Of a stretch of DNA of 64,000 bases, positions 12,861 through 59,087 are shown piece after piece. The notes under the pieces were generated by a model. It was given only the letters and a program-made list of their open reading frames with translations. It did no database searches and was not told the origin of the DNA. The position numbers and the translations under genes are program-made. Position 1 is the first letter of the stretch, and every line of letters begins with the position of its first letter. The DNA is from Bombyx mori (taxonomy: Eukaryota; Arthropoda; Insecta; Lepidoptera; Bombycidae), in contig NC_085116.1 of NCBI RefSeq assembly GCF_030269925.1, forward strand, positions 1,116,001-1,180,000, written 5' to 3'.

Positions 12861-13128
12861 ACGGCCGTCTGGAGTAGTGGTAAGTGACATGGTCACTACA
12901 CAAGGGTGTCGCGGGTTCGAATCCCGCCAAGGGAAGATATTTGTATGATAAATACAAATGTCTTTTCCAGGGTTATGGATGTATATTAAATGTATGTATG
13001 TGTATAATAAAAATCTTACATTTATATCCGTTATCTGGTACCTGTAACACAAGTTCTTTACGAACTTATCACGGGACCAGTTAACGTGGCGTGATTGTTA
13101 GTAAATATTTATTTATTTATTTATTATA
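12861..13128 (+). mobile_element. tRNA-like SINE, second family, copy 1
   Basis: Head acggccgtctggagtagtgg is followed by an exact B box GGTTCGAATCC (12914-12924). The body includes ccagggttatggatgtatat and ggtacctgtaacacaagttc, and the tail is (TTTA)n. About 265 bp, unrelated to Bm1 apart from the Pol III promoter. Two more copies lie at 36555 and 43817. Confidence 0.85.
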
Positions 13129-13894: not shown

Positions 13895-14127
13895 AGACGA
13901 AAACAGGTACGGGAGTTAGCAAATTAACTTAGAATTCAAAATTTTCTCGCAGTGCTCATAAGATTATCGTTAAAATGCATAATTTCACATACACCAAAAT
14001 TCTCTCGGTACCTTCCACACTAACAAATATGTACCTACAGAGTTTTATCTAAAGTGTTACCTTGTTATTTGAACACCAATGTATCTATGGTGTTGGATGC
14101 CCTTGGCTTGTTTCATAACATATTTTT

Positions 14128-21641: not shown

Positions 21642-22142
21642 CACCAGGTTTTGTCGGGATGTGATCGTGTTTCTGATTGGAAGCTTACGATAGCCTTTGT
21701 ATTAACACCAAACATATCATAACGGGTCAAATGAACCATTTTGAATTATTGCATTGAAAATGCACGTATCATCTTATTGTTCTTGCATATTTGACCTCAT
21801 GAGTTTTTCTTAACAATAAATCTACAGTTATTATACTTTTTTTGGATTTGTTTATTTTGAGTAATACTTGTCTACTTATCTACATGCTATGGTAGAAATA
21901 GGCACCAGTAAGTGTTGGTATGATTAGTATTAACCGCCATTTGTATCAGTCGGGACTTTGATGTCAAAGTGCGGAGTGACATTCACAATGATCTCTATGG
22001 GCTCGTCAGGGCGTTGAGATCTCATCCGTCCACAGCTTAGAGCCCCGTGAGTTCACCTACTGGCTCGGTGAATCTAGTATAGCCCTGAGAATCGAACGCT
22101 CTGAGATCATGGTCAATGAATGATAAAAAAATATGTTATTTT
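21642..22142. other. Intergenic DNA with a trace of LINE family B
   Basis: About 22035-22100 (cagcttagagccccgtgagt, ttcacctactggctcgg) resembles the 3' end of LINE family B at low identity. Nothing else is recognised. Confidence 0.4.
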
Positions 22143-22144
22143 TT

Positions 22145-22236
22145 GTACGTTATTACAAAGTTAAGTCGTAGACTGTGTGCATTACTGATTTGTACGTAAT
22201 TACAAAGTTAAGTCGTACACTGTGTGCATTACTAAT
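22145..22236. repeat. 47-bp tandem duplication
   Basis: Two adjacent copies of a 47-bp unit (gtacgtTATTACAAAGTTAA and following to gtgtgcattactgat) differ at only a few positions. It ends about 180 bp upstream of the tsh exon acceptor. Confidence 0.85.
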
Positions 22237-22413
22237 AAAAATCTTACGTTACGGACGTTTTTTCCCGGTTAGGATACCCCTCCGCATCGTCCCATAAGGA
22301 ACTTCGTTCCAAAAAATATCTGCAAGCTACAACTAATCAAAGGACCCTCAAATCAAATCACCCTTAGCTAATTTATGATTCTCCATCTGATTTTAGTGTC
22401 TCTTTGTCTACAG

Positions 22414-22597
22414 AGGAGGAGAACAGTGCAGAAGGCGGTGTGAAGGATCGTAGCGAGGGCGGGGAGGGGCCCGACCGTGAAGGTGACGCATCCAGGTCAG
22501 CGTCGCCGGAATCCAGGGCCTCTCCCGCGCCGGACGACAGAGACGACATTGAGCACAGCATCCCGGCAACCCTGATACAGGATCCCAATGTTGAGAG
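22414..22597 (+). CDS. tsh: teashirt (tsh) upstream coding exon, long isoform (partial)
   Basis: A 184-nt exon bounded by an acceptor with a pyrimidine-rich tract (tctctttgtctacag) and a donor (GAGAG then gttggt). It starts after the first base of a codon and ends after the second base of an AG+G codon, the phase needed by the acceptor at 31915. The join reads through as DPNVER-ESPR without a stop. It encodes about 62 residues, mostly acidic and Ser/Pro-rich (EEENSAEGGV, SASPESRASPAPDDRDD), plausible for the acidic N terminus of teashirt-family proteins. It contains no ATG, so at least one more upstream coding exon exists. I could not find it in the window. Assignment to tsh rests on strand, phase, splice sites and composition rather than on an aligned homologue. 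Confidence 0.78.
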
Positions 22598-22756
22598 GTT
22601 GGTATTTACAGATTATTTACCTAATTTAATTAAAAACTAAATTAATTGTCTATAAACATATAGACAAACATTTAAAAATAAATCAAGGCACACAGAGAAC
22701 ACGTAAACTAAGTCGCTGATATTTCTATCTATCCGTTTGTGTATCACGGAGCATTT

Positions 22757-22886
22757 TTTTTGCATATATGAATGGATGAGCTCACAGCCCACCTGGTGTT
22801 AAGTGGTTACCGGAGCCCATAGACATCTACAACGTAAACGCCGCCACCCACCCTGAGATATGAGTTGTAAGGTCTCAGTATAGTTC
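22757..22886 (-). mobile_element. Bm1-type SINE fragment in the tsh intron
   Basis: Reversed 3' blocks: ggatgagctcacagcccacc, tctacaacgtaaacgccgcc, ggtctcagtatagtt. It starts only 160 bp beyond the tsh exon donor. Confidence 0.85.
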
Positions 22887-23837
22887 ATGATAGATATTTA
22901 AATTATATTTTTATACGTGTGTAATTAAAAAAATATAATGTGCTAATTGTCATATCCGATCCGACCATTGATTATAAACTATCAGAAACATGGTGATAAG
23001 ATGAAAGAAAAAAAATATGATCAATATATAGTAGAAAAATCTTTGACATAACAACCGTCTAAGACTGATGCAGTACTGTCAAAGGCTTTGACGGTGGTCT
23101 GTGCTTTATACCGTCAACTTAACGATACCATTGTTTACCCTACACGATTGTCAACTGGCATAAACCTTTACAGTGGTGCAAGTCAAACTGTGCTTTTGCA
23201 GCAAGTCTTAAGGCTTATTTTGTAATGTGTACTTTAATTTTAAGATGTAAAAGAAAAATGAATTTATCTTCAGTTACGACAGCTGGTTTTGTGTGACTTT
23301 TAGGCCTTAATGATGGACTGTATACTGTGTTTTACATGTCATTACTTATAGTATACCATATAAGTCATGGGTGTAGAGAGATTAAACATTGACAATACAA
23401 TGAAAGTGAAATAAATATATTATTATGTAGTTTAAAAACAAAAAAAAATCTCACTTAAATTGAAGCTGTACTAACAATCAAATCATTATTGTGCCTTGCG
23501 TTCCTAGTTTTCTTTCCCCTGGTGATGATTGTCAGGCTTTTAAGAATAAGAAGTAAAATTGTTGGGTTGTCTTCCATACTTGATATGTGCCTAAATTTTC
23601 AAGATAAGAAGATGACTGAAAATATAAATTTTAAGAATTAAAATACGTGCTTTAATAACAAACTGAACTAACTATTGATTTCATGTTTTTTATCCTTTTA
23701 ATACTTTGAAGTTATATTGTATTGTGTTCGGAACTTGATGCGTTTGCAAATTATGAACCTAAGCGGGTGTCTTAAAGTCAGTAAAAACGATGTTCAATTA
23801 TTTCGTTACACACAATCAAACATGTTTACAACGATCG
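22887..23837. other. Intronic AT-rich DNA
   Basis: No repeat or exon recognised. Confidence 0.45.
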
Positions 23838-24083
23838 CCATGCCCGGTCATCGTTCTCGTCGACCAGTCGCTTGCGACCAACAGACGCAGCCCGCTGAGT
23901 TTCTCGCCGGATCTTCTCAGTGGGTCGTATTTCCGATCCGGTGGTAGATTCTGCGAAGCACAGCTCTTGCTAGGGTTGGTGTTAGCAACGACGTCGGATT
24001 TGAGCCCCGTGAGCTCACCTACTAGTTAAGGCTACGCTGAAATTGTCTCTCAAGACCATCAAGCTTAGGTAGGGAAAAAAATA
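23838..24083 (+). mobile_element. LINE 3' end (family B)
   Basis: Sense copy: gtttctcgccggatcttctc, agattctgcgaagcacagct, gagccccgtgagctcaccta, ending aggtagggaaaaaaat. 5' truncated. Confidence 0.82.
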
Positions 24084-24333
24084 TTGCCATGCGTTTCACA
24101 CATTGTTTTCATAATATGTGTGTTAATTATTTTATTGAAAGAAAGGCTATTTGGATTAAGCGACATTTTTGCAACATTACAGGAGAGCCATTTAAAGCTT
24201 AAAATTTGGAAATAATATCAAAACCAAGAAACTTCTTCAGCTATTTAAATGGAGTAAACTTAATTGAAGTTCAATTAGAAACATCGAACTGTTGATGCTA
24301 ATACCAAATAAAACGCACCTTTAATTACAAAGA

Positions 24334-24746
24334 CTAGAGGTCCCACAGTAGTGGAAATTCGACTATAATTGGAATTGTAAGTTTGTACACTATTATGATT
24401 GTATTTTATACTTCTATAATCACAAATTTCACCAAGGATACACTATAAAAAAATATTAATAAAGACAAACAATATTTAATCTATTCTCAAGTTGACCACA
24501 GACGTCAAGAACAAAAGTTTGACAATAAATAGTATGCATGCGTGTGTGCGTCAAATACGTGTGTAGTGTGTGTAATGTTTTCTTTATTGATTTAATGTAT
24601 CCTTTATGCATTATTTAAAAAAAAATTTAGCATTGTGCACTTCTTTTCTATATTCTGTATAAGTCTAGAAAATTTCATACTCCTCCGTCCACGCAATTTT
24701 CGTAAAAAGGGATACCAAGTTTTTGCTTCACGTATTAATATATAGA
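24334..24746 (-). mobile_element. Non-autonomous Helitron-like element, copy 3
   Basis: On the minus strand it starts TCTATATATTAATACGTG after host A and ends CTCTAG before host T. 413 bp. One arm of the terminal hairpin carries a substitution (gtggaaattcgac), so this copy is partly decayed. Confidence 0.8.
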
Positions 24747-25194
24747 TAAATATAGCGAAATGTCGCTTAAACGAAATAGCCTTTCACCTCTCCTTATATC
24801 ATTGAAATTTGAAACAAATTGGAACAAATTCTAGAGATTTCTACGTCGTCTGTGCATCTTGTGAGTGAGTATTTTCTTAGATAATTTCTAAAGTATCGCA
24901 ATGCAAGGCTGATGCGATTGCGATTCACCCGATCTCAGTAGCTACCGTTTCTCCTGGTCATCAATAACAGACAAGGCACGGTTAAGTTCCTGTCGAAATA
25001 TCAGAGTATAACCAGGCCACTACTACTTCGTGCCAGAAATAGGCAAGACGGCCGTACCCACTTGTGCGGTATCTGAATAACTACTGGCCAAAACCACCAA
25101 AACGTTGCGTTTTATATTTTTGTTCGCGCGGCAAAAACCCTGCCGAATAACTACTGTATAGGACTCCGCCCTAACATATTGCTCGGTAGACCGA
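24747..25194. other. Intronic DNA, nothing recognised
   Basis: No exon or repeat identified. Confidence 0.45.
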
Positions 25195-25560
25195 CGGTCC
25201 AAATGATTGAAGGATTACTGGTGGCCCGGAGGCCTTTCCAGTTTCACCAGGACAGGTGGGCGAGCAAAGGCTCAGCCAGGAGGGGTGGGATTTGCTAACA
25301 ACTGCCCGAGCGCCTCCGAAGGAGACCTAACAACTCAAGAGCAATTGCTTCGCAAATGAATCTACTACCGGATCGGAATCGCGACCCGCTGAGAAGATCC
25401 GGCGAGAAACTCAGCGAGCTGATTCATGGGTTAGGTTGCAGGGCGAACTCTTTGTCGAGTTCGACGGGTACGGTTATCGAGGTCCCTAAGCCTGCTCCTA
25501 GTGTTAGAGCTGAAGGCGTCTAATGCAAAGGTTATTGGATCTGATGGATCCGTAAGGACG
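25195..25560 (-). mobile_element. LINE 3' end (family A), longest uninterrupted copy
   Basis: Antisense copy: attgaaggattactggtggc, gtttcaccaggacaggtggg, gcctccgaaggagacctaac, gagaagatccggcgagaaac, then ggtccctaagcctgctccta. Families A and B share the gatccggcgagaaactcag core, so they are related 3' ends of one LINE lineage. Confidence 0.8.
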
Positions 25561-25777
25561 TGTCTAGGGCGTCGACGGTGACTGGCTCCTGCGTGATCAG
25601 GATTCGGGGAGTAGTCAGCGGCGGCAACGATAAGGCGATTATCATGACGCGGTCCAAATGTTGTTGTTGGGAACTTGTATATATGCGAGCTTATCTTGAA
25701 AATGTCGTAAGCGAGATTCAGGCATCTGTCAAATATCTTGCGTTGTATGATGGCTACCCGCCACAGTTATGTTTTTC
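25561..25777. other. Likely continuation of the LINE copy
   Basis: GC-rich sequence (gtctagggcgtcgacggtga, gcggcaacgataaggcgatt) directly abuts the LINE family A end and is open for 79 codons on the + strand. It is probably more of the same LINE in antisense; I cannot align it to another copy here. Confidence 0.4.
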
Positions 25778-26217
25778 ATTTTTTTTATTGCTTAGATAGG
25801 TGGACGAGATCACGGCCCACCTGATGTTAAGTGGTTACTGGAGCTCATAGACATCTACAACGTAAATGCCGGCACCTACCTTGAGATAATGGTTGTAAGG
25901 TCTCAGTTTTTACAGTACAATGGCTGCCCCACTCTTCAAACCGAAACGCATGCTTCACGGCAGAAATAGGTAGGGTGGTGGTGCCCACCCGCGCGGACTC
26001 ACAAGAGGTCCTACCACCAGTAATTACGCAAATTATAATTTTGCGGGTTTGATTTTCATTACACGATGCTATTATTCGCATTATCGTGGAAGTCAATCGT
26101 AAACATTTGTTATGTGGTATTTCAATAGAAAAATTGGTTAGCGCGTGCGGGATTCGAACACCGTTGCATCGCTAGATACGGATGCACCGGACGTCTTAAC
26201 CTTTAGACCACGACTAC
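25778..26217 (-). mobile_element. Full-length Bm1-type SINE
   Basis: Reversed tail tattgcttagataggtggac, complete body, B-box region gggattcgaacaccgttgca, head ending cctttagaccacgactac. A few bases are lost near gaaacgcatgcttc. Lies in the tsh intron. Confidence 0.9.
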
Positions 26218-26447
26218 GTCGGAGTTAGATAGGTAGATACTTGCAATCGATTCTGGAAAAACCAGATCGAATTCATTTATTGATAATATGATACGAATCT
26301 TTACTTAATTAATCACTGTGTTATGATATCAGCACTATGATTGATGTTTTAGTGATTGAACTGTTGCCGGTTGGCGGTTCCGGGTTGCGATTTTTTCGGA
26401 TTTGTTATTTGTTTAAAGTATTTTACACCTTATTTATAATGTCGATA

Positions 26448-26565
26448 AGTTTGCCTATCTCTGTCGCCATGCGTCTGGGTTTGAAGGGTGTAATAGTCGT
26501 TAAACAGACTTCAACCATATCTCTCAAGATGGAAAGCGCAATTTGCGTTGCAATGCCTGTTTTAG
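26448..26565 (+). mobile_element. Ancient Bm1-type SINE trace
   Basis: gtttgaagggtgtaatagtc, ccatatctctcaagatgg and caatttgcgttgcaatg keep the order of Bm1 blocks (gtttgaagggtggggcagcc and so on) at low identity. The 79-codon frame across it is therefore not a gene. Confidence 0.5.
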
Positions 26566-28250
26566 TTTTAGTCTAGTGTTTGCCCAAAAATGTACACGTA
26601 GTACCTGTTTAGGAGTAGATTAGAAAAAAAATTTAAAACCTATTTAATTTATAAATGGATTTTGAAAATTTAATAATGTACTCCGTTAATATTTAATTAT
26701 GTATGTAACACGCAATAACTTGGAAATTTTAGTTAATTTATGACAACAAAAAAAATATACATATTTATAATCATTTCTCGCAAATTGTGTCAACATTAGC
26801 AAGAATTGTTTGATTGTGTTTTACATAAGCAAACAGAAGCCGAGCCGTTATACGGAATGATAAATTAATGATCATTAAATTATGTTCGTGAACGAATAAA
26901 TTATCTGGTGATACTAACACAGTTAAAACAATAAAGTCGTAGCTGACCACGAAAACTGTGAAACAACGAAAATAATAAACGCTATATAAAATAATTAAAG
27001 TATTTTAATCAAAAGTACATAGGGAAGCTATTGATAACTCCAGAGAGAAAACATACACACACGCACACACACTGATCGTACCGTACACTGCTAGTTATGA
27101 TGGGTTATGATGGGTCGTCTGCTGGTGAGGGGGAAAATTAAAGGGAGAGAGAGTGTTAATTAGGTAAATAAGATGAAGAGGTCATACAAGAAGGTCAGCT
27201 TCATTTGATTCGTTAATACGGACATAAAATAAAGGAAGAGGACGTTATAGAATCAATGAGTGTAGTTGCTAGTATACATTACATATATATAATTACCGGT
27301 ATTACACTAAATTAAAAAATATTGATTAATTTATTTTATTTTACAATTTGACGAGATTTTTGAGATAATATAAGAATTTAAAATTAAAGCCACAATATTT
27401 TTTATGTATAATGTTACTTTCAAAATATATGTTCCTAATTCTTATCTAAGGTCCGGTGCATCAGGTGCCTTTCTAACATTAATATCGTCTCTGAATGCAT
27501 TTTTCATTGCATTCCCGACTTTATGGCCACAGTTATACGGTTCCCAAATGTTTTCAGCGATAACTTGCTCAGCAGCCCAGAATATTCCATCAGTGTCAAT
27601 TAGCTACAACGTTGAGACGCGATCAATCATAAAACCGACTCCGAGAGCTTCGTTTCAACAATCTTTTGTGTTTTTGAGATTCGAAATTCGCATTTAAAAT
27701 TATTATTTTCGTTTTCTTTTCGTTAACATTACATTTGCACAGAGCTTAAAGTGGTAAGGTTTAGGAGGAAGTTATCACAGAAAGTAACAGTACAGAGGTT
27801 GAAAGGCTACGATACGTTTTTACGATGCATGACCAACTCATTATCAATTGGATTGCGACTTAATGCAAGGTTAACATAAACCAATATTCGCAACTAGGAT
27901 AGTAATAATCTTCAATCTTTCTATCGTGCCTGGTAACAATGATATTCCCTGAATTATCAGAAAAGGGTCCGTCCTTATAGCAGTGGTTACGGCGATTACA
28001 CACAAATTGAAAACACGTGCAACATTGTCTTATTCCGTTGCTTATCTTTTAGCTTTAGCCCAGCACCAATCTATCAACTAGGTATTATATTGTATCAGCT
28101 TGTAATTACCTGAATATTGGTTTAATTCAATTCTGGGAAATATTTAATAAGAGAAAACCGTGATTATTGACGCGAATTTAGAGAGGACTATCAATAGTAT
28201 GATAATGATGATGATAATGGTAAAATAGCTTTTTAAGGTGTAGATATTTT
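26566..28250. other. Intronic AT-rich DNA
   Basis: No recent repeat. A short CA microsatellite lies at about 27053-27073. The 97-codon frame at 27404-27697 has no domain I recognise and no splice-site support. Confidence 0.45.
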
Positions 28251-28254
28251 GTAA

Positions 28255-28330
28255 CTAGCGTCCCGTCTACTGAGTCACAGGTACGATGACTGCTTCACTC
28301 AGAAATATGATATATAATAGTATTACCAAA
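28255..28330 (-). mobile_element. Ancient Bm1-type SINE trace
   Basis: gatgactgcttcactcagaa and atatgatatataatagtatt follow the spacing of the reversed Bm1 actgcttcacggcagaaata segment with heavy divergence. Confidence 0.35.
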
Positions 28331-28828
28331 GGCCATTGGCATCACCGCCTTAAGACTAGAAGCTTAATTGATTTGAATCATATGGAACCAAGAAAATCAG
28401 AGTGTGTGCTTACATTTACCTTACATAACACAAACAGACAATGGTACCAACAAGCTTCATAACCGCCACAATTCTACATCCCAAAAAGAGTCGCCAAACA
28501 TTTTAAAAAAAATATTAAACTATAGCAACTATTGAAAATTCGACAATAGAGCCTGCAAATATAATACTTGATAAAGATTAATGCAATCAAAATCATTGTT
28601 GCTGATATGTGTCGCCAAGGCGGTTTTTGAACGATAAATCAATTTGCAATACTGTTGCTATGATTAATTAATTTAGGTCGATGATTATTATAAATATCAC
28701 AATTGGACAGAATTCAACTTTGCACGGTCACTTTGTAAGAAACCTTGTCTACCTTCGTCTGCAATGATTTTTTGCGTGCGTCCATCGACACTACCGAGTT
28801 TTTTTCCTTGTGACGCTGTTGGTTTCGG

Positions 28829-28890
28829 GTTACTACTTAACACTGGGTGAACCGTCAGCTTCCCTACCCATCTATACCAAAACAAATAAA
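28829..28890 (+). mobile_element. Ancient Bm1-type SINE 3' trace
   Basis: tactacttaacactgggtga and ccctacccatctataccaa resemble the Bm1 3' end (accacttaacaccaggtggg, cacccatctaagcaat). Confidence 0.4.
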
Positions 28891-29879
28891 TCTACAATCT
28901 ACCAGATGTTAGGTTGTAACCTAAATCATGAGTTCAAAGTTTCGATAACAATGTCACTTGCAATTTATGTACCCACTTCAGTCGCAAGTATTCAAACTTG
29001 TGATCCCGCATATTATTAGCATTAAGGACAAGTTGGGTAGCTTGTTTGTCTGCTAATAAAAAAAAAAAACTAATAAAAAATTTCCCCGGCAATAAATTTT
29101 GCTGAAACGCACATTAATTTTTAACCTTTCTGATAACAGCACATGTTAATGGTCGTAAAGTGCCCGCACGATGCACAACTGACGGTTGATGTGCAAATGC
29201 CAACGGCGTTCCAATTCTGAGCTGTCACATCACAAAACGATTATAGCACAGAAACTATTGCTTTGAAACTTTCATCATATGCCTTAGACTTAAATAAAAT
29301 GTGTGAAATAATTCGACATGTGGTCAGATTCCGTTGTTGCGAACATTACTTCGAATTCGAACTAAGATTAAAGATTCGTCAAACTTGAAAGTTTTTGTTT
29401 TTGTTTAACTGTAGAAAGAGACAAGCATAGTTGTCACGTAAACACGAGTGATTGATGGACCCGCACTTCACTAATGGTGATAAAAACCATCGACAGTTGG
29501 AGCCCCAAACACAAAGGTCGGAATTGGATCTTTGGAACGCTTATTGCCAAATCGTGGTCACAGATGTTCTGATCAAAACGTGTTAATAATTTTGTTTGAT
29601 ATTCTTTTGTATATTTCAATTAACATGTAGGATATATATAAAATTAGTTGAAGGATAACTTGAACGAAATATTAATTAGAAACGGAAGATCAAAAAAAAA
29701 AGTAGATTACATTGATGACATTTTCATGTTTTCCGCGTATCGTGAGCACAATAGAATTCGTTTCGCCTGACTAACATATTGTCAACGACAGACATCGTCC
29801 TGCATTTCCAGTGAAACTAAATAAACCCGAAAGAAATATTTTCCTTTGTCAAAGCAGGAAATCTGTTCATGATACGCGT
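28891..29879. other. AT-rich DNA before the tsh internal promoter
   Basis: No transposable element, exon or RNA gene recognised. GC content rises from about 29870. Confidence 0.5.
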
Positions 29880-30598
29880 AAATCCGTCCGCGTCCCCTGT
29901 CTGTCCCGGAGACGTTAAAAGGACTCGTCTCGGCATTTTGTTAACGCGCCATTTCCTTGTCAACGCCGTCAGCCACGTCAGGCTAATCTCCACTAAGCCT
30001 CGGGACTTCTTCGCTCTAGCGGAGTGAACATATAGACCGAATAGGTGAACGTCTCGTTAGAGCGGTGCCGCGCTCATTGGCCGTCATGGATGCTCGGTAC
30101 ATTTTTCATTGGCGTTACGAGTCTGAGTCGGCCGTGCTGAACGGCTGGTCGTGTCAGACGGCTGTCATCGGCACGATCGCCCGTCACTGCACGTCCACCT
30201 CGCGCATCGCACGCACGCTTGCATTACGCAGCACCACCCCTCGAACTATCGTACCGATAGTCGTCTCTGTCTTCGCTGTCGATTCGTTGATCGCGGGAGC
30301 ACCTGTCTCGCTCTAACGAGGGGCGTGCGGGGCGGGGGCGCTGCAGGCGGGTCGTAAATCACGCGGCATCTCATTCCACGCGGGACCGTCGTTGCTGCCG
30401 CAGGCACCGCGCACTTCCTTTCCGACCGCTGAGATCGCGGTGCGTCTTTCGCGACGTGTTTACGTTTACAATATTTTACTGAAAGCCAGTTTTGTTATAT
30501 TTGTTGAAGTGTTAAGTCGATTCTGGTGTTCGTTTTGATGGATCCAATAGTTTTTTGACGTTCTACGTTCAAGATACATTGAAAACATTTCGTCTAGA
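29880..30598 (+). promoter_or_regulatory. tsh: GC-rich promoter and 5' UTR region of the short tsh isoform
   Basis: About 700 bp of GC- and CG-rich DNA, with a GC-box-like run ggggcgtgcggggcgggggc at 30320-30339, directly precedes the short first coding exon, in contrast to the AT-rich DNA on both sides. An initiator-like TCATTC lies at 30371-30376. A 12-bp inverted repeat (CTCGTTAGAGCG at 30053-30064, CGCTCTAACGAG at 30309-30320) brackets part of it. The transcription start cannot be placed from sequence alone. An 83-codon frame here (30065-30316) does not look like a protein gene. Confidence 0.6.
30538..30558 (+). CDS. Short upstream ORF in the tsh 5' leader
   Basis: ATG GAT CCA ATA GTT TTT TGA encodes six residues and stops 40 nt before the predicted tsh start at 30599. 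If included in the mRNA it could reduce initiation at the main ATG or allow reinitiation. There is no evidence that it is translated. Confidence 0.35.
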   Translation: MDPIVF

Positions 30599-30624
30599 AT
30601 GATTGTCGAGCCCGACCACGTGAG
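30599..30624 (+). CDS. tsh: teashirt (tsh) alternative first coding exon, short isoform
   Basis: ATG ATT GTC GAG CCC GAC CAC GTG AG ends at a near-perfect donor (AG followed by gtacgt). The ATG has A at -3. The exon ends in the same phase as the 22414 exon, so splicing to 31915 gives MIVEPDHVR-ESPRCLS with no stop and a total of 1007 residues. It therefore replaces the acidic N-terminal exon by nine residues from an internal promoter. The start choice rests on the consensus donor, phase match and the GC-rich region just upstream. At 26 coding nt it is too short for standard ORF calling. Confidence 0.72.
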
Positions 30625-31914
30625 GTACGTTTTATTTGTTCAGTTGTTTAGTTATTTTCGCGTAACGTATCAACTTTGCCATTGTTTCCGTAAATACTAA
30701 TTATTTTCTATTATCTGTTATTTATTGATACATCGACATGTCTTAATTCAAAAATAAAATGTTAAAGTTGTCAAAGTTTGAAATTTGATATTCGGAGTTC
30801 GTGATTCGGATCCTGTCTCCAATTCGAATACGTGATGTCCCCAGTGTGTGTATCAGTTTCGAAAACGTCGACAGTGTAATAAATAACGCGGTGTTAGACA
30901 GAAAGTGTAATTTAGTATTTTTCAAACAACCATCAGAGCTGAATACGAATACTAATCACCTTATTAAAATGTTTGTACGAAAATTATGCGAAAAATAAAC
31001 TAATTAAATGCTCAAAAGTCTACTTTACCAACCTTAATGGTTCTTTTGACACAGATCCCTAAATGGTAATTCATCGTTTTCCGATTATGAACCTAACCGA
31101 AATTCAACAAAATATATCGTTTTAGAAACGCTAAACCTACTCTTTCACTTTTTTCGTGCTAATCAAACCAGTTCTGAAACACTTTGTGTGCATTTTATTT
31201 TGTTGTAAATCACTGATAAACAATCCTTTTTCGGCCATTCTATCTTTGTCATTATCTTCTATTATAATCGCAATAATAATAACAATATTATTTTTTGCCT
31301 TTCACCAAGAAAAACTTAAATGTTTATAGGCAAATAAAAAATTATAAAGGAAAAAGCAAAAGAATATAGATGGTTCAGCTGATGCTCTGAAGTGGATTAT
31401 CATGATTCTTTCTCTATATTACTGTATCATATTATAAATTGTTAAATGTTTTAAGCTGTCCTTACTACGGCCATAAATCGTTTACAGATGAATGTTATTG
31501 CCATTATTGTTGTAATTTCTGTGAACTCACTCCATCGTGTTTCTGATTTTCATTTGGACCTACAGTCGCCTAAGATTTATTGCCGATTATTAGCCTCGTC
31601 ATTGAGTAGTCATTGAGGTGCCTACAGGGTGTTTATTTTTATCGTAAAACGTTTTTTACTCTTCTATTTTAGACACCAAAATAATATACAGACCACCGCG
31701 TTGTCATACAAAAATAACACATTGTTTTTGCATCGAAATTTAAACTATTATTCAAGAAGTACTACTATGAGTACACTACTATTCAAGAAGGACACGTTAC
31801 TTCTAAATAAACAACGTAAAGCATTTTAGTGCTGTCTCGGTTAGCTTGTAATGTAACCGGTTTCTGTTGAGTTTTGTCAATTAAAACTAACGTTTGATGT
31901 TTTTTTGTTGCCAG
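30625..31914 (+). other. tsh: tsh intron before the main exon
   Basis: It runs from the gtacgt donor to a strong acceptor (ttttttgttgccag, ending at 31914) with a branch-point-like actaac about 25 nt upstream of the AG. There are no recognisable repeats or other exons. The short frames at 30743-30998 and 31629-31829 lack support. Confidence 0.7.
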
Positions 31915-34912
31915 GGAGAGCCCGAGATGTCTTTCGCGGGAGTCGTCGGGTGCGCCGCGATGTCCCTCCAATGACTCGGTGTACTCCGGACGTAGCGGGG
32001 CTGGCCTTCCTCTGCCCGCCGCGCTCACCGCCGCTCTACCAGCCGCACTGCTTCCACCTCACTCAGCAGCGGTCGCCGCGTACCTCGGCGCAGCAGCCGC
32101 AGCCGCCGCCCAGCAACGTTTGCTCATGTCCTGCCACGAGGACCTCACTGACCCCGAACGTGCAGATGCCGTACTTGACTTTAGCACAAAACGTAGCGAC
32201 TCGCCCCACGACGACGAGGATATAGAGGATGCCGTCAACCTCAGCAAAAACGAAAACGGTCCTCTGGACCTTTCGGTTGGGACGAGAAAAAGGGGACCAG
32301 AAGACTCGCCTTCACCTGTTCCCATTAGAAAAAGTTCTAGACCTGCAGAGTACAAACCAACCCCGTCTCCGTGGTCTACGCCTGTCGCCCCTCATTTACC
32401 TTATTTTGCCGCTGCAGTTGCTGCTGCCAGTCTGTCGCCTAAAGGAGGTGTTCCTGCTGACTGGAATGGTAAACTGAAGCACGGCGGCCCTACACCGAAC
32501 GACGCAACTAAAGCATTAGAAAAAATGAGTGAACTTAGCAGACTCGGTGGGGAAGAACTCTTCCGATCAGTACAAACAGCTGCTTTAGGTGCCGGCTTGG
32601 CTCCGAACGCAGCCGCCAGACATTCGGCTTGGCAATCTCATTGGCTCAACAAAGGAGCGGATCAAACGAAAGATGTACTTAAATGTGTGTGGTGTAAGAA
32701 GAGCTTCAATTCTCTAGCAGATCTTACAGTTCACATGAAAGAGGCCAAGCATTGTGGTGTAAATGTGCCAGTGCCACCATCTACAGGTGCACCGATCCCA
32801 CCATCCTTACAAACTCCCACTAGTTCACCATCGACTCCATCGCACAATTCATCTTCTTCTAGCGGTTCTTCGAAACCGTCACAAAGCGATTTAAATATGT
32901 TAATTAAAGAAAACATGCCGATTCCTAGAAAGCTAGTTAGGGGTCAGGACGTTTGGTTAGGTAAAGGCGCTGAGCAAACTAGGCAAATATTGAAATGTAT
33001 GTGGTGTGCAGAAAGTTTTCGTTCTTTAGCTGAGATGACGAGTCACATGCAACGCACTCAGCATTATACGAATATTATTTCTCAAGAGCAAATTATTTCA
33101 TGGAAATCATCTGAAGACGGAAAGGGCTCCAACGCAAGCGGTCCGGGTACTAATAATTCAGTTCCACCTACTACGGGCACCAGTAGTCACGTCAGCGCCG
33201 TTCTCACTTGTAAAGTTTGCGATCAAGCATTCAGTTCATTGAAAGAACTAAGTAATCACATGGTCAAGAACTCTCATTACAAGGAACACATAATGCGATC
33301 GATTACCGAAAGTGGAGGTAGACGACGCCAGACTCGTGAGAAGCGAAAGAAATCATTGCCAGTCAGGAAACTCCTTGAATTAGAAAGAGCCCAGCATGAA
33401 TTTAAAAACGGAGACGGTAACGGCGTGCCTATGGGTAAACCAATTCGTGATTATGGCACCGGAAGCCGCATCACGTGTGAGAAATGTGGGGACAAAATCG
33501 AGACCGCAGTATTTGTGGAGCACATTAGGCAGTGTATCGGAGCACCGGTTTCTAACAGTCAAAGGAATTTTCTGAAGAGCGCATTAATGTCGAACAACAT
33601 AATTCCTCCAGACGTGCCGGGACACATTACCCCCACCAGCCGTGATGGACGCAAAAGCATCAACGAAGAACTGCCTTCCCCTGGGTCCGCACACCACCGA
33701 TCTCCTTCGTCGGTTAATGATTCATCTCCCTGTTCCAAAGATCCCAATGTGAACATGGACAAGAGCTCATCACCATCGGTACTTAACGCCATAGAACAGC
33801 TGATTGAGAAGAGTTTTGACACTCGATCACGACATTCAGTACCGGGAATGCCCGGAGGCGCATCTCACGCTCCGATAGGATCAAGTATCCTTAAGCGCTT
33901 GGGCATAGACGAAAGCGTTGATTATACAAAACCTTTGGTTGATGCTCAAACAATGAACATGCTCAGAAACTATCACCAGCAGTCCGGTTATGGACGGCGA
34001 GAGCGCAGCGGTAGCGAATCTAGTTCTATGTCTGAAAGAGGTGGCAGCAGGGTTGAGTCTCTCACACCCGATAGAAAGCTAGATTCATATCACATGACAC
34101 CACGCACCACTCCTGATACTCGCGGCTCACAGACTCCAGCTTCCGAAGATCGACATGAAATACGGATAAAAAAAGAAGTAGACGAAGAGGATCAACGAGA
34201 AAACGGCGTAGATTTGAGTAATCAACCAGTGCGGGTGAAGACTGAGATGGAAGAAGAAGAGGAACCTCTACGACCAAGGAGCTCTACGGAAGAAGATATC
34301 AAACCAGTCGTACCCAAACGCGAGAGCGAGGGTCCCAGCCCAGCCGCTAGCCCCCGCAGTCCGTCCAGTGATCGCTCAGGCAACACTCCGGGTGCTGATA
34401 GGAAACCGGCTTCTAGTTTAGGGGCTCTTTCCTCTATGTTCGATAATCTTGCGGGAGGCGGACCGTCTAATGAGCCAAGTTCTTCCCGGCGCGGTGGCAG
34501 CCATCCTCTGGCCGCACTACAAAAGCTGTGCGACAAGACCGAGAACACACCGGCACGTGCATCTGCGCCGGCGCAATCTCCGGCCGGGCCGCCCAGCATC
34601 CTCACCTTCAGCTGGGCCTGCAACGATGCCGTCGTCACAGATTCCGTTATGAAGTGTGCGCTGTGCGATACTCCATTCATTTCGAAGGGTGCATATCGCC
34701 ACCACTTATCGAAAATGCACTTTGTGAAGGACGGTGCCTTGCCGGAGCCGGTGCCTCTGAAGGCGGGGTCGCCGGCGCCGCACAAGCCTGGCTCGGCGGC
34801 TGGCTCCCCGCAGGACCCCCGCAGCCCCGCGCAGACCTTCGACGAGAGCCCGCACTCCAAGTTCCTCAAGTACACGGAACTGGCCAAGCAGCTCTCCAGC
34901 AAGTACGTGTGA
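31915..34912 (+). CDS. tsh: teashirt/tiptop zinc-finger transcription factor, main exon
   Basis: This 3-kb exon encodes nearly all of Teashirt, a nuclear C2H2 zinc-finger regulator that in insects patterns trunk, proximal appendages and eye. Residues are numbered on the 1007-residue short isoform. An Ala-rich N terminus (about 41-74) is followed by PLDLS at 125-129, the CtBP co-repressor motif. Three widely spaced family-type fingers follow: C266/C269/H282/H288, C370/C373/H386/H392 and C441/C444/H457/H463. The first two are each preceded by a W-L-x-K-G-A-x-Q-T segment. A basic stretch (477-505) may be a nuclear localisation signal. A CCHC-like module lies at C530/C533/H545/C549, and a C-terminal finger at C923/C926/H939/H944. 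IKKE (760) and VKTE (783) fit SUMO sites. No homeodomain is seen, unlike vertebrate TSHZ. The frame stays open 5' to the acceptor-derived ESPRCLS; a GTG at 31979 is not the start. Stop TGA at 34910. The C-terminal finger is more tiptop-like, consistent with the single tio/tsh gene of most insects. Confidence 0.95.
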
Positions 34913-57393: not shown

Positions 57394-57934
57394 ACAAAGA
57401 AACATATATGACCAGTTAAATGAAGCTTGTCAAAATAATAAAAATTTTAAAAAAATAAACACTGGCACTGCGTCACCTCTTATCGCGTGCAGTAATTATT
57501 GTAATCAGTTAAATACGTTTAATAAATACGTATCGTTTTGTGCTTGATAGATTAATGGCCTCGCTGTGTGATTGATTCGTGTAATTGCTAAGGATGTTTC
57601 AATGATAATTCGCTTATCAACGTAATGGAATGTCACTATGACTGATAGTACGTGTCGGTGTTGGTATTTCGTTTCATTATTGATATGAATTCGTGGCCGC
57701 GGCTTCACACGCGCAAAAACTTGTATTATAAATTACGTATGTCGCTAATTTTCTTATCTTTTGATTCGTAGACAAAAGTATACTATTACGTCGTTAGATA
57801 ATGTAACAAAAAATTGTAGATTTATAGACAAAATATAATATTTCTGCTCGGTTAGTCATCAGGATCTAATCGCGACTGCGAGTACCACTAGACGTTTTAT
57901 TAAAATAAATATAAATGTATGTTTTTTATTAAAA
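57394..57934. other. Unassigned AT-rich DNA
   Basis: No gene or repeat recognised. Confidence 0.4.
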
Positions 57935-58310
57935 AATAGGAGCACGATCTCCCATCATCTCAGCCTGTCCACTGTCCATTGCTGAACATAGGCCTCTCCA
58001 AGTGATTTCCAGTGCGGCCGGTCCGTTGTCACTTGCATCCAACGTGACCCAGTAACTGACCCATCGGCCGTCCGATCTTCGCGCTATGTGGCCTGCCCAC
58101 TGCCACTTCAGCGTGCTAATCCTATGGGCTATGTCAGCAACTTTGGTTCTTCTACGGATCTCCTCATTTCTGATTTGGTCTCGTAGAGAAATACCAAGCA
58201 TAGCCCTCTCCATAGCTCGCTGCGCGACACTAAGCTTCCTAAAAAGATCCCTTGTGAAGCACCACGGCTCGGAACCGTAAGTCATCACTGGTAGCACATC
58301 GATAGGTAGT
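57935..58310 (-). pseudogene. LINE ORF2 C-terminal remnant
   Basis: The minus strand encodes LPVMTYGSEPWCFT, VAQRAMERAMLGISLRDQIR, RRRTKVADIAHRIS and LKWQWAGHIARRSDGRW. This is the segment following the reverse-transcriptase core in a widespread insect LINE. The frame departs from the expected C-terminal module after GRW. The element's 3' end is recognisable from the antisense of cagcctgtccactgtccatt followed by gctgaacataggcctctcc. It is 5' truncated and has no catalytic residues. Confidence 0.85.
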
Positions 58311-59087
58311 ACGATCTCCCGTTACTTATATTTTCTTTTCATTCTATCCATTCTCGCATATAGCAGCCTTACATTCCTGTTTGAAGGATACAGAGCCGTT
58401 AAAAACAATATTGAATTCTATAGACGCCAAAAGAAAGAAAAAAAAAAAAATTTAAACGTTACAAAATATTGTTGACATATTAGTATTTATATTATATCAA
58501 TTGCACGATATTCATGATTAATTGTCAAAGTTATGGTAAAGTACGTTCTTTACTTTGTATTTTACCTTGAAAGTGTTTAATAGATTAGATGTACAGTCAC
58601 CCGGCAACATGCGGTTACCGGTGAGAGTATTCTGCTATACTTCTATATAGGCAAGATTGTAGTGCCTCTTTGCGTGTCTTTAGCACGTACCTCTCCACAG
58701 ATTCCCACTGCCCAACGACCGTTCTGTTCGGATACTCTGTGACAACTAAGCTTGAAGCTTTTGAAGCGAAATTATAAATCATTACAAACTGTAAATAGAC
58801 GCGGCGTGTTCGCGGGAGCGTATGCAGCGAAAATACGTGATATTTTATATTCATTATTATTAGTATTGGTAACATCTGTCGTTTACTTTAACTTTGACAT
58901 GATCCTTGTAAATAGATCTTAATTGTTGACGTATTATGATGCTGTATAAAAGTTTGTTAAGAGGCGACTAACTAAAAAGGCTCATTCGAAATAAATGTAA
59001 CTATTTTCTCGAGTTAAACCATTAGTTGATATGTAAATCTAATGTGTTTGATGACCGCACAAATAGATAGATACCGCCCAGAGCATC
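58311..59087. other. Unassigned AT-rich DNA
   Basis: No gene or repeat recognised. The 86-codon minus-strand frame at 58615-58875 has no known domain. Confidence 0.45.

Follow-up and report, generated by a model that had tools for sequence, protein, structure and literature searches.

The tiptop/teashirt (tio/tsh) gene acts in the patterning of the insect trunk, wing base and renal tubules. We analyzed its layout in a 64,000-nucleotide stretch of Bombyx mori DNA (NC_085116.1, positions 1,116,001 to 1,180,000 of the forward strand; hereafter the window), in which two upstream exons appear to provide one zinc-finger protein with alternative N-termini. According to a comparative study, the panarthropods investigated have one tio/tsh gene each, save Drosophila, which has both tsh and tio. 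The layout described there comprises five zinc fingers (ZF), of which ZF4 is of the C2HC type and ZF5 lies near the C-terminus, and Drosophila Teashirt is a derived paralog with only three fingers, without ZF4 and ZF5 (PMC8173736).

The closest described counterparts are NCBI models named "protein tiptop" or "protein tiptop-like". The X1 models of Bombyx mandarina, Ostrinia, Colias, Pieris and Cydia have a long N-terminus and the X2 models of Hyposmocoma, Papilio, Leptidea, Aricia and Battus a short one, on the same zinc-finger protein. Nothing essential differs at the locus described here, where the window adds the exon positions, a CpG-rich stretch and an intron of more than 22 kb. As the exons are already in public lepidopteran automatic models, they are hardly a discovery. 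A literature search found nothing on moth tio/tsh isoforms among the matches listed, with most subscription papers outside its reach.

Two probable N-terminal routes into one zinc-finger exon

We consider it highly probable that two alternative N-terminal routes lead into one zinc-finger exon of tiptop/teashirt, one through a distal exon and an acidic exon and the other through a proximal short exon with its own start. The window sequence shows that both joins are open, and proteins of relatives carry the two N-termini attached to the same residue. A search with the translation of the acidic and main exons returned as its best match the "protein tiptop-like isoform X1" of B. mandarina (1079 residues; P0001 among the proteins retrieved). 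The features of the locus are as follows.

22414..22597, + strand: acidic coding exon of the long form (184 nt, phase 1 in, phase 2 out, 60 whole codons; matches P0001)
29751..30598, + strand: CpG-rich region, probably the 5′ leader and promoter of the short form
30599..30624, + strand: first coding exon of the short form (26 nt, MIVEPDHV and the first two bases, AG, of the common arginine codon)
31915..34912, + strand: main coding exon common to both forms (split arginine followed by 998 codons and the TGA at 34910-34912)
32261..32275, + strand: PLDLS motif, in both forms
32684..32752, + strand: zinc finger 1 (C2H2, pattern match)
32996..33064, + strand: zinc finger 2 (C2H2, pattern match)
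33209..33277, + strand: zinc finger 3 (C2H2, pattern match)
33344..33367, + strand: RKKSLPVR, compatible with the pattern RK(x)xxPxK/R of internal NuRD motifs (no more than a lead)
33476..33535, + strand: zinc finger 4 (C2HC, pattern match)
34655..34720, + strand: zinc finger 5 (C2H2, pattern match)

The acidic exon is directly preceded by TTTGTCTACAG and followed by GTTGGT. The short exon, ATGATTGTCGAGCCCGACCACGTGAG, is directly followed by GTACGT, and TTTTTTTGTTGCCAG stands directly 5′ of the main exon. The joins 22597-31915 and 30624-31915 each create an AGG arginine codon, after which 998 codons are open. The coordinates, lengths and phases in a preliminary description of this DNA (184 and 26 nt, both ending in AG and completing AGG with the G at 31915) were thereby reproduced from the sequence. 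The acidic exon opens with the final two bases of a split codon, and its frame, read back into the intron, meets a stop at 22365, 17 codons before the first whole codon. It follows that this exon requires another one upstream. The ATG of the short exon has an in-frame stop 17 codons 5′, at 30548, with no in-frame ATG in between.

The pattern matches place three C2H2 fingers, one C2HC finger and a last C2H2 finger at residues 257, 361, 432, 521 and 914 of the 998 encoded by the main exon. Both this five-finger layout and full-length similarity to insect tio/tsh proteins were found for the window gene. Because there are five fingers and the fourth is C2HC, the gene is, as judged from its predicted protein, better named a tiptop/teashirt ortholog. 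The name teashirt in the preliminary description needs this change, as the gene is not a Drosophila-type Teashirt, a paralog that the presence of ZF4 and ZF5 rules out.

The long form and its distal first exon

From residue 21 onward, P0001 and the window translation share 1056 of 1059 residues; the N-terminus of P0001 is MRSKQQPRPAYRWLNSNENE. As the first two bases of the acidic exon complete a split codon, the P0001 start indicates that the missing exon encodes MRSKQQPRPAYRWLNSNEN plus one base. Searches of both window strands with the start peptides of P0001, Ostrinia and Phlebotomus did not find this distal exon (best E 0.24, for a match without the look of a homologue). Provided that the distal exon is located upstream and on the same strand, the intron preceding the acidic exon therefore exceeds 22.4 kb. 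The long form would thus have 80 residues ahead of the shared arginine, with the first 19 codons outside the window; the extension of at least 62 residues proposed in the preliminary description becomes 80 with the P0001 start. The 80 residues include 19 acidic and 10 basic ones.

The conservation of the long-specific part was measured against P0001. The product of the first exon retains 16 to 17 of its 19 residues in five further lepidopteran-like proteins and 15 of 19 in a sand fly protein (P0036). The acidic middle is variable, with 20 to 29 of 31 to 43 residues kept in the lepidopteran-like proteins and 13 of 42 in the sand fly. The last 18 residues of the acidic exon (DDIEHSIPATLIQD..VE), which contain the conserved block DDIEHSIPATLIQDPNVE, are kept at 14 to 16 of 17 to 18 positions in five lepidopteran-like proteins and at 14 of 18 in P0036. 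With residues 1-100 of P0001 as the query, eight proteins were matched at E ≤ 0.001 (198 candidates), and all named ones are lepidopteran. Residues 1-125 of the sand fly protein gave seven matches at E ≤ 1 (463 candidates), namely two sand flies and five lepidopteran-like long forms, the latter at E 2.1e-8 to 2.7e-5. A Pfam search with the acidic peptide returned no family up to E 1.

Several further features lie in the introns on either side of the acidic exon. A candidate microRNA precursor at 12921-12980 (+ strand), in the presumed first intron of the long form, matches the whole Rfam mir-2818 model with 91.6 bits against a gathering score of 90. A 47-base unit occurs twice at 22142-22233 (95% matches), about 180 bases 5′ of the acidic exon. 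The stretches 22780-22860, just 3′ of that exon, and 25800-25880, in the intron near 25.8 kb, are near-identical (..CCCACCTGRTGTTAAGTGGTTAC..ATAGACATCTACAACGTAAA..) and have the look of a dispersed repeat.

N-terminal classes among relatives

The search with the acidic and main exons, which scored only the 7977 candidates sharing most words, gave 564 matches at E ≤ 0.001; the N-terminal counts cover the best 120. These include the Tribolium "teashirt-like" protein P0038 and many proteins named "protein tiptop". The protein collection was clustered at 90% identity, and both forms of one species consequently cannot appear side by side. We recognized five classes by their first residues: MRSKQQ (7 of 120), MIV[E/D] (14), M[P/T]RRKQ (14), MLHEA (3, mosquitoes) and MRSKSVP (4, leaf beetles).

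The MRSKQQ class consists of six lepidopteran-like proteins and one from a sand fly. The MIV[E/D] class comprises 11 named Lepidoptera (Arctia, Manduca, Diatraea, Hyposmocoma, Papilio, Leptidea, Aricia, Battus, Plutella, Eumeta and Phthorimaea), two proteins that are lepidopteran-like by identity, and one from a caddisfly (P0035) with a start longer than that of the moths, MIVECDRRLRGLAAHTHR. Exactly MIVEPDHVR is present in seven of these 14 proteins, and one of them, P0029, carries 14 extra residues before it. Among the lepidopteran matches with isoform labels, X1 goes with MRSKQQ in all five cases; X2 goes with MIV in six of seven lepidopteran or trichopteran ones. The two N-terminal isoforms postulated in the preliminary description thus have counterparts for both N-termini in relatives, and the model labels separate them.

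Joined forms also occur on short contigs of the source "lgn": the long form in P0002 (whose longest contig has 5298 bases) and the short form in P0007 (4635 bases) and P0029 (4383 bases). Other "lgn" proteins, among them P0006, P0019 and P0021, seem to read through intron ends into the main exon. Since these apparently run through the intron ends, the joined "lgn" proteins probably derive from spliced RNA.

Outside Lepidoptera, P0038 and the long forms of beetles, termite, lacewing and stink bug likewise have an acidic extension before the same main region. These open with M[P/T]RRKQxCPKRMKW, which contains RRKQxxP, whereas the moth long form opens with MRSKQQPRP. A different start, MRSKSVPVNIFIRKINT.., precedes the acidic part in the leaf beetle proteins P0066, P0074, P0075 and P0102 and is perhaps another alternative first exon. 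The mosquito tiptop models P0048, P0060 and P0082 resemble the moth short form in that a short N-terminus leads straight into the main region without an acidic part. Their start peptide, MMLHEAVMLEIYRQALHA, is unlike the moth MIVEPDHV, and no similarity between MIVEPDHV and the mosquito MLHEA peptides was detectable (shuffle p 0.76-0.83). Drosophila Teashirt starts like the mosquito tiptop models.

The short form and its putative promoter

The predicted short form has 1007 residues, eight of which (MIVEPDHV) precede the shared arginine. The stretch 30151-30650 has a CpG observed/expected ratio of 1.61, the window maximum among 500-base stretches with GC above 0.5. The window mean is 1.14, and 500-base stretches of the 29751..30598 region range from 1.46 to 1.61. 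With this peak directly before the short exon, a separate promoter at the CpG-rich stretch is most likely for the proximal route. Between 29700 and 30640 there is a single strict initiator-like match, at 30371, although such short matches prove nothing.

We propose that the long transcript would begin with the distal exon (MRSKQQPRPAYRWLNSNEN plus one base), be spliced over more than 22 kb to the acidic exon and from there to 31915, and encode 1079 residues. The short transcript would start in the CpG-rich stretch before 30.6 kb, be translated from 30599 and be spliced to 31915, giving 1007 residues. Alternative promoters would make the choice between the routes, and both forms would be expressed in this species. 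The short protein would be without a cofactor-binding N-terminal module, made up of the basic start peptide and the IPATLIQDP block, and would retain the five fingers and the PLDLS motif. We take PLDLS to be a CtBP-type site.

Could a single distal promoter serve both forms instead, with the short exon spliced from a far-upstream noncoding exon, so that alternative splicing rather than promoters makes the choice? The sequence TCTAG at 30593-30597, right before the ATG, is compatible with an acceptor there, and the interval 29700-30640 yielded no TATA-like match upstream of the short exon. This arrangement is nevertheless unlikely in view of the CpG maximum at 30151-30650. In addition, the frame of P0029 is open for at least 14 codons before MIV, which argues against an acceptor just before the ATG in that species.

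It is far less probable that the 26-nt exon belongs to a 27-nt cassette (30598-30624) that is inserted in frame between the acidic and main exons of the long form. The three would indeed be in frame together (R MIVEPDHV R), a one-in-three event; however, none of the seven MRSKQQ proteins has the insert, and in the proteins retrieved a non-initial MIVE occurs only in P0029, at residue 15.

Splice sites and chance expectation

Donors were ranked among the 3817 GT sites of the window's + strand by an approximate model built from general knowledge. The short-exon donor ranks 31st and the acidic-exon donor 181st. The acceptors of the acidic and main exons have equal pyrimidine content (12 of 17) and share rank 125 among 1657 YAG sites. 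The preliminary description had called the donors and the acceptor good; by this ranking, the acidic donor is not a strong one.

That description had also regarded the phase agreement of the two exons as unlikely by chance. This argument is weak, as the agreement is a chance event of about one in three. AG preceding a donor is consensus. We scanned both strands of the window for mini-exons with an ATG and at most 90 open nt ending in AG|GTRNGT. There were nine candidates, four of them in phase 2, and the one at 30599 is the sole + strand candidate between 20 and 32 kb. That one or both exons are mere chance open frames, as the one-in-three phase agreement and the nine comparable ATG mini-exons by pattern on both strands might allow, is scarcely credible, given that both peptides, joined to the first residues of the main exon, are found in proteins of relatives. 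It is these homologues, rather than the phase, that make both predicted exons convincing and very probably real.

Several points weigh against the two-route reading. Both forms are predicted from DNA, orthologues and models, and the names X1 and X2 denote automatic models. In the window species, the short form rests on orthologues and the window DNA, the protein record found being of the long form only. The rank of the acidic-exon donor is mediocre. Of the 120 listed proteins, 78 fell outside the classes and did not enter the comparison, having an internal Met, being partial or apparently reading through from an intron. The Vanessa X2 model P0004 is the exception to the label pattern, belonging to neither class, and seems to start in the intron before the acidic exon. 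Finally, P0001 itself is missing from the seven matches of the sand fly 1-125 query.

If the two-route reading is correct, two conserved N-terminal forms would be a concrete way for one gene to do the jobs that flies split between tsh and tio.

A possible NuRD-type motif at the N-terminus

As described in two studies, RRKQxxP is the N-terminal motif by which FOG-1, SALL and BCL11 bind RBBP4 of NuRD (PMC11602157, PMC6644156). The former reports that ZNF512B requires the second Arg, the Lys and the Pro but not the first Arg, and gives an internal NuRD-motif pattern, RK(x)xxPxK/R (PMC11602157). In BCL11B, according to the latter, losing the first Arg also weakens binding about tenfold (PMC6644156). 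The literature search found nothing on NuRD recruitment by insect tio/tsh among the matches listed, with the same reach as above.

Like the motif in FOG-1, SALL and BCL11, the moth long start is short and basic and stands at the extreme N-terminus of a zinc-finger protein. An RRKQxxP start is present in 14 of the 120 listed relatives (P0038 to P0117: beetles, termite, lacewing, stink bug and two others) and in none of the top 34, all lepidopteran or lepidopteran-like. The motif is missing from P0001 and from the window, which also has no match to M[P/S/T/A]RRK. An RRRKQ at 13895 was considered as an MPRRKQ exon and rejected, there being no Met and stops on either side. In the Bombyx MRSKQQPRP, Ser replaces the second Arg of RRKQxxP and the Pro is shifted.

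MRSKQQ may be either a degenerate MPRRKQ exon or a first exon in its own right. The similarity between an MPRRKQ and an MRSKQQ start (MPRRKQDCPKRMKW versus MRSKQQPRPSYRWL) is weak, and its shuffle p of 0.046 is suggestive only. For MRSKSVP versus MRSKQQP the whole-peptide p was 0.12; when RSK..P at these positions was tested post hoc, p was 0.0003, a value that is not relied on. The beetle start peptide, a very short query, had no match among solved structures up to E 10. RKKSLPVR, a candidate internal motif, is present in all seven sequences scanned (the window main exon, P0001, P0036, P0038, P0110, P0035 and P0048). Both predicted isoforms might still bind RBBP4 through RKKSLPVR, which is against a simple loss of NuRD binding.

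A broader proposal, which we regard as doubtful, is that start switching is an ancient property of insect tiptop/teashirt, the alternative N-termini determining whether NuRD is recruited. MPRRKQ would represent the intact motif and MRSK a decayed one (MRSKQQP in moths and the sand fly, MRSKSVP in leaf beetles), while the proximal starts (MIV in moths and the caddisfly, MLHEA in mosquitoes) would be without the module. In moths the strong motif would have disappeared, and any NuRD recruitment would depend on RKKSLPVR. If the N-terminal start does decide corepressor recruitment, knockdowns hitting both isoforms would have mixed two activities.

Other features of the window

On the − strand, an open frame of 130 codons at 57929-58321 contains ..VMTYGSEPWCFTRDLFRKLSVAQRAMERAMLGISLRDQIRNEEIRRRTKV..; presumably it resembles the end of a non-LTR (long terminal repeat) retrotransposon reverse transcriptase. 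The stretch 25001-26000 is GC-rich (0.502). A tandem array with a 25-base unit occupies positions 1-564 (22.6 copies, 98% matches) and extends past the start of the window.

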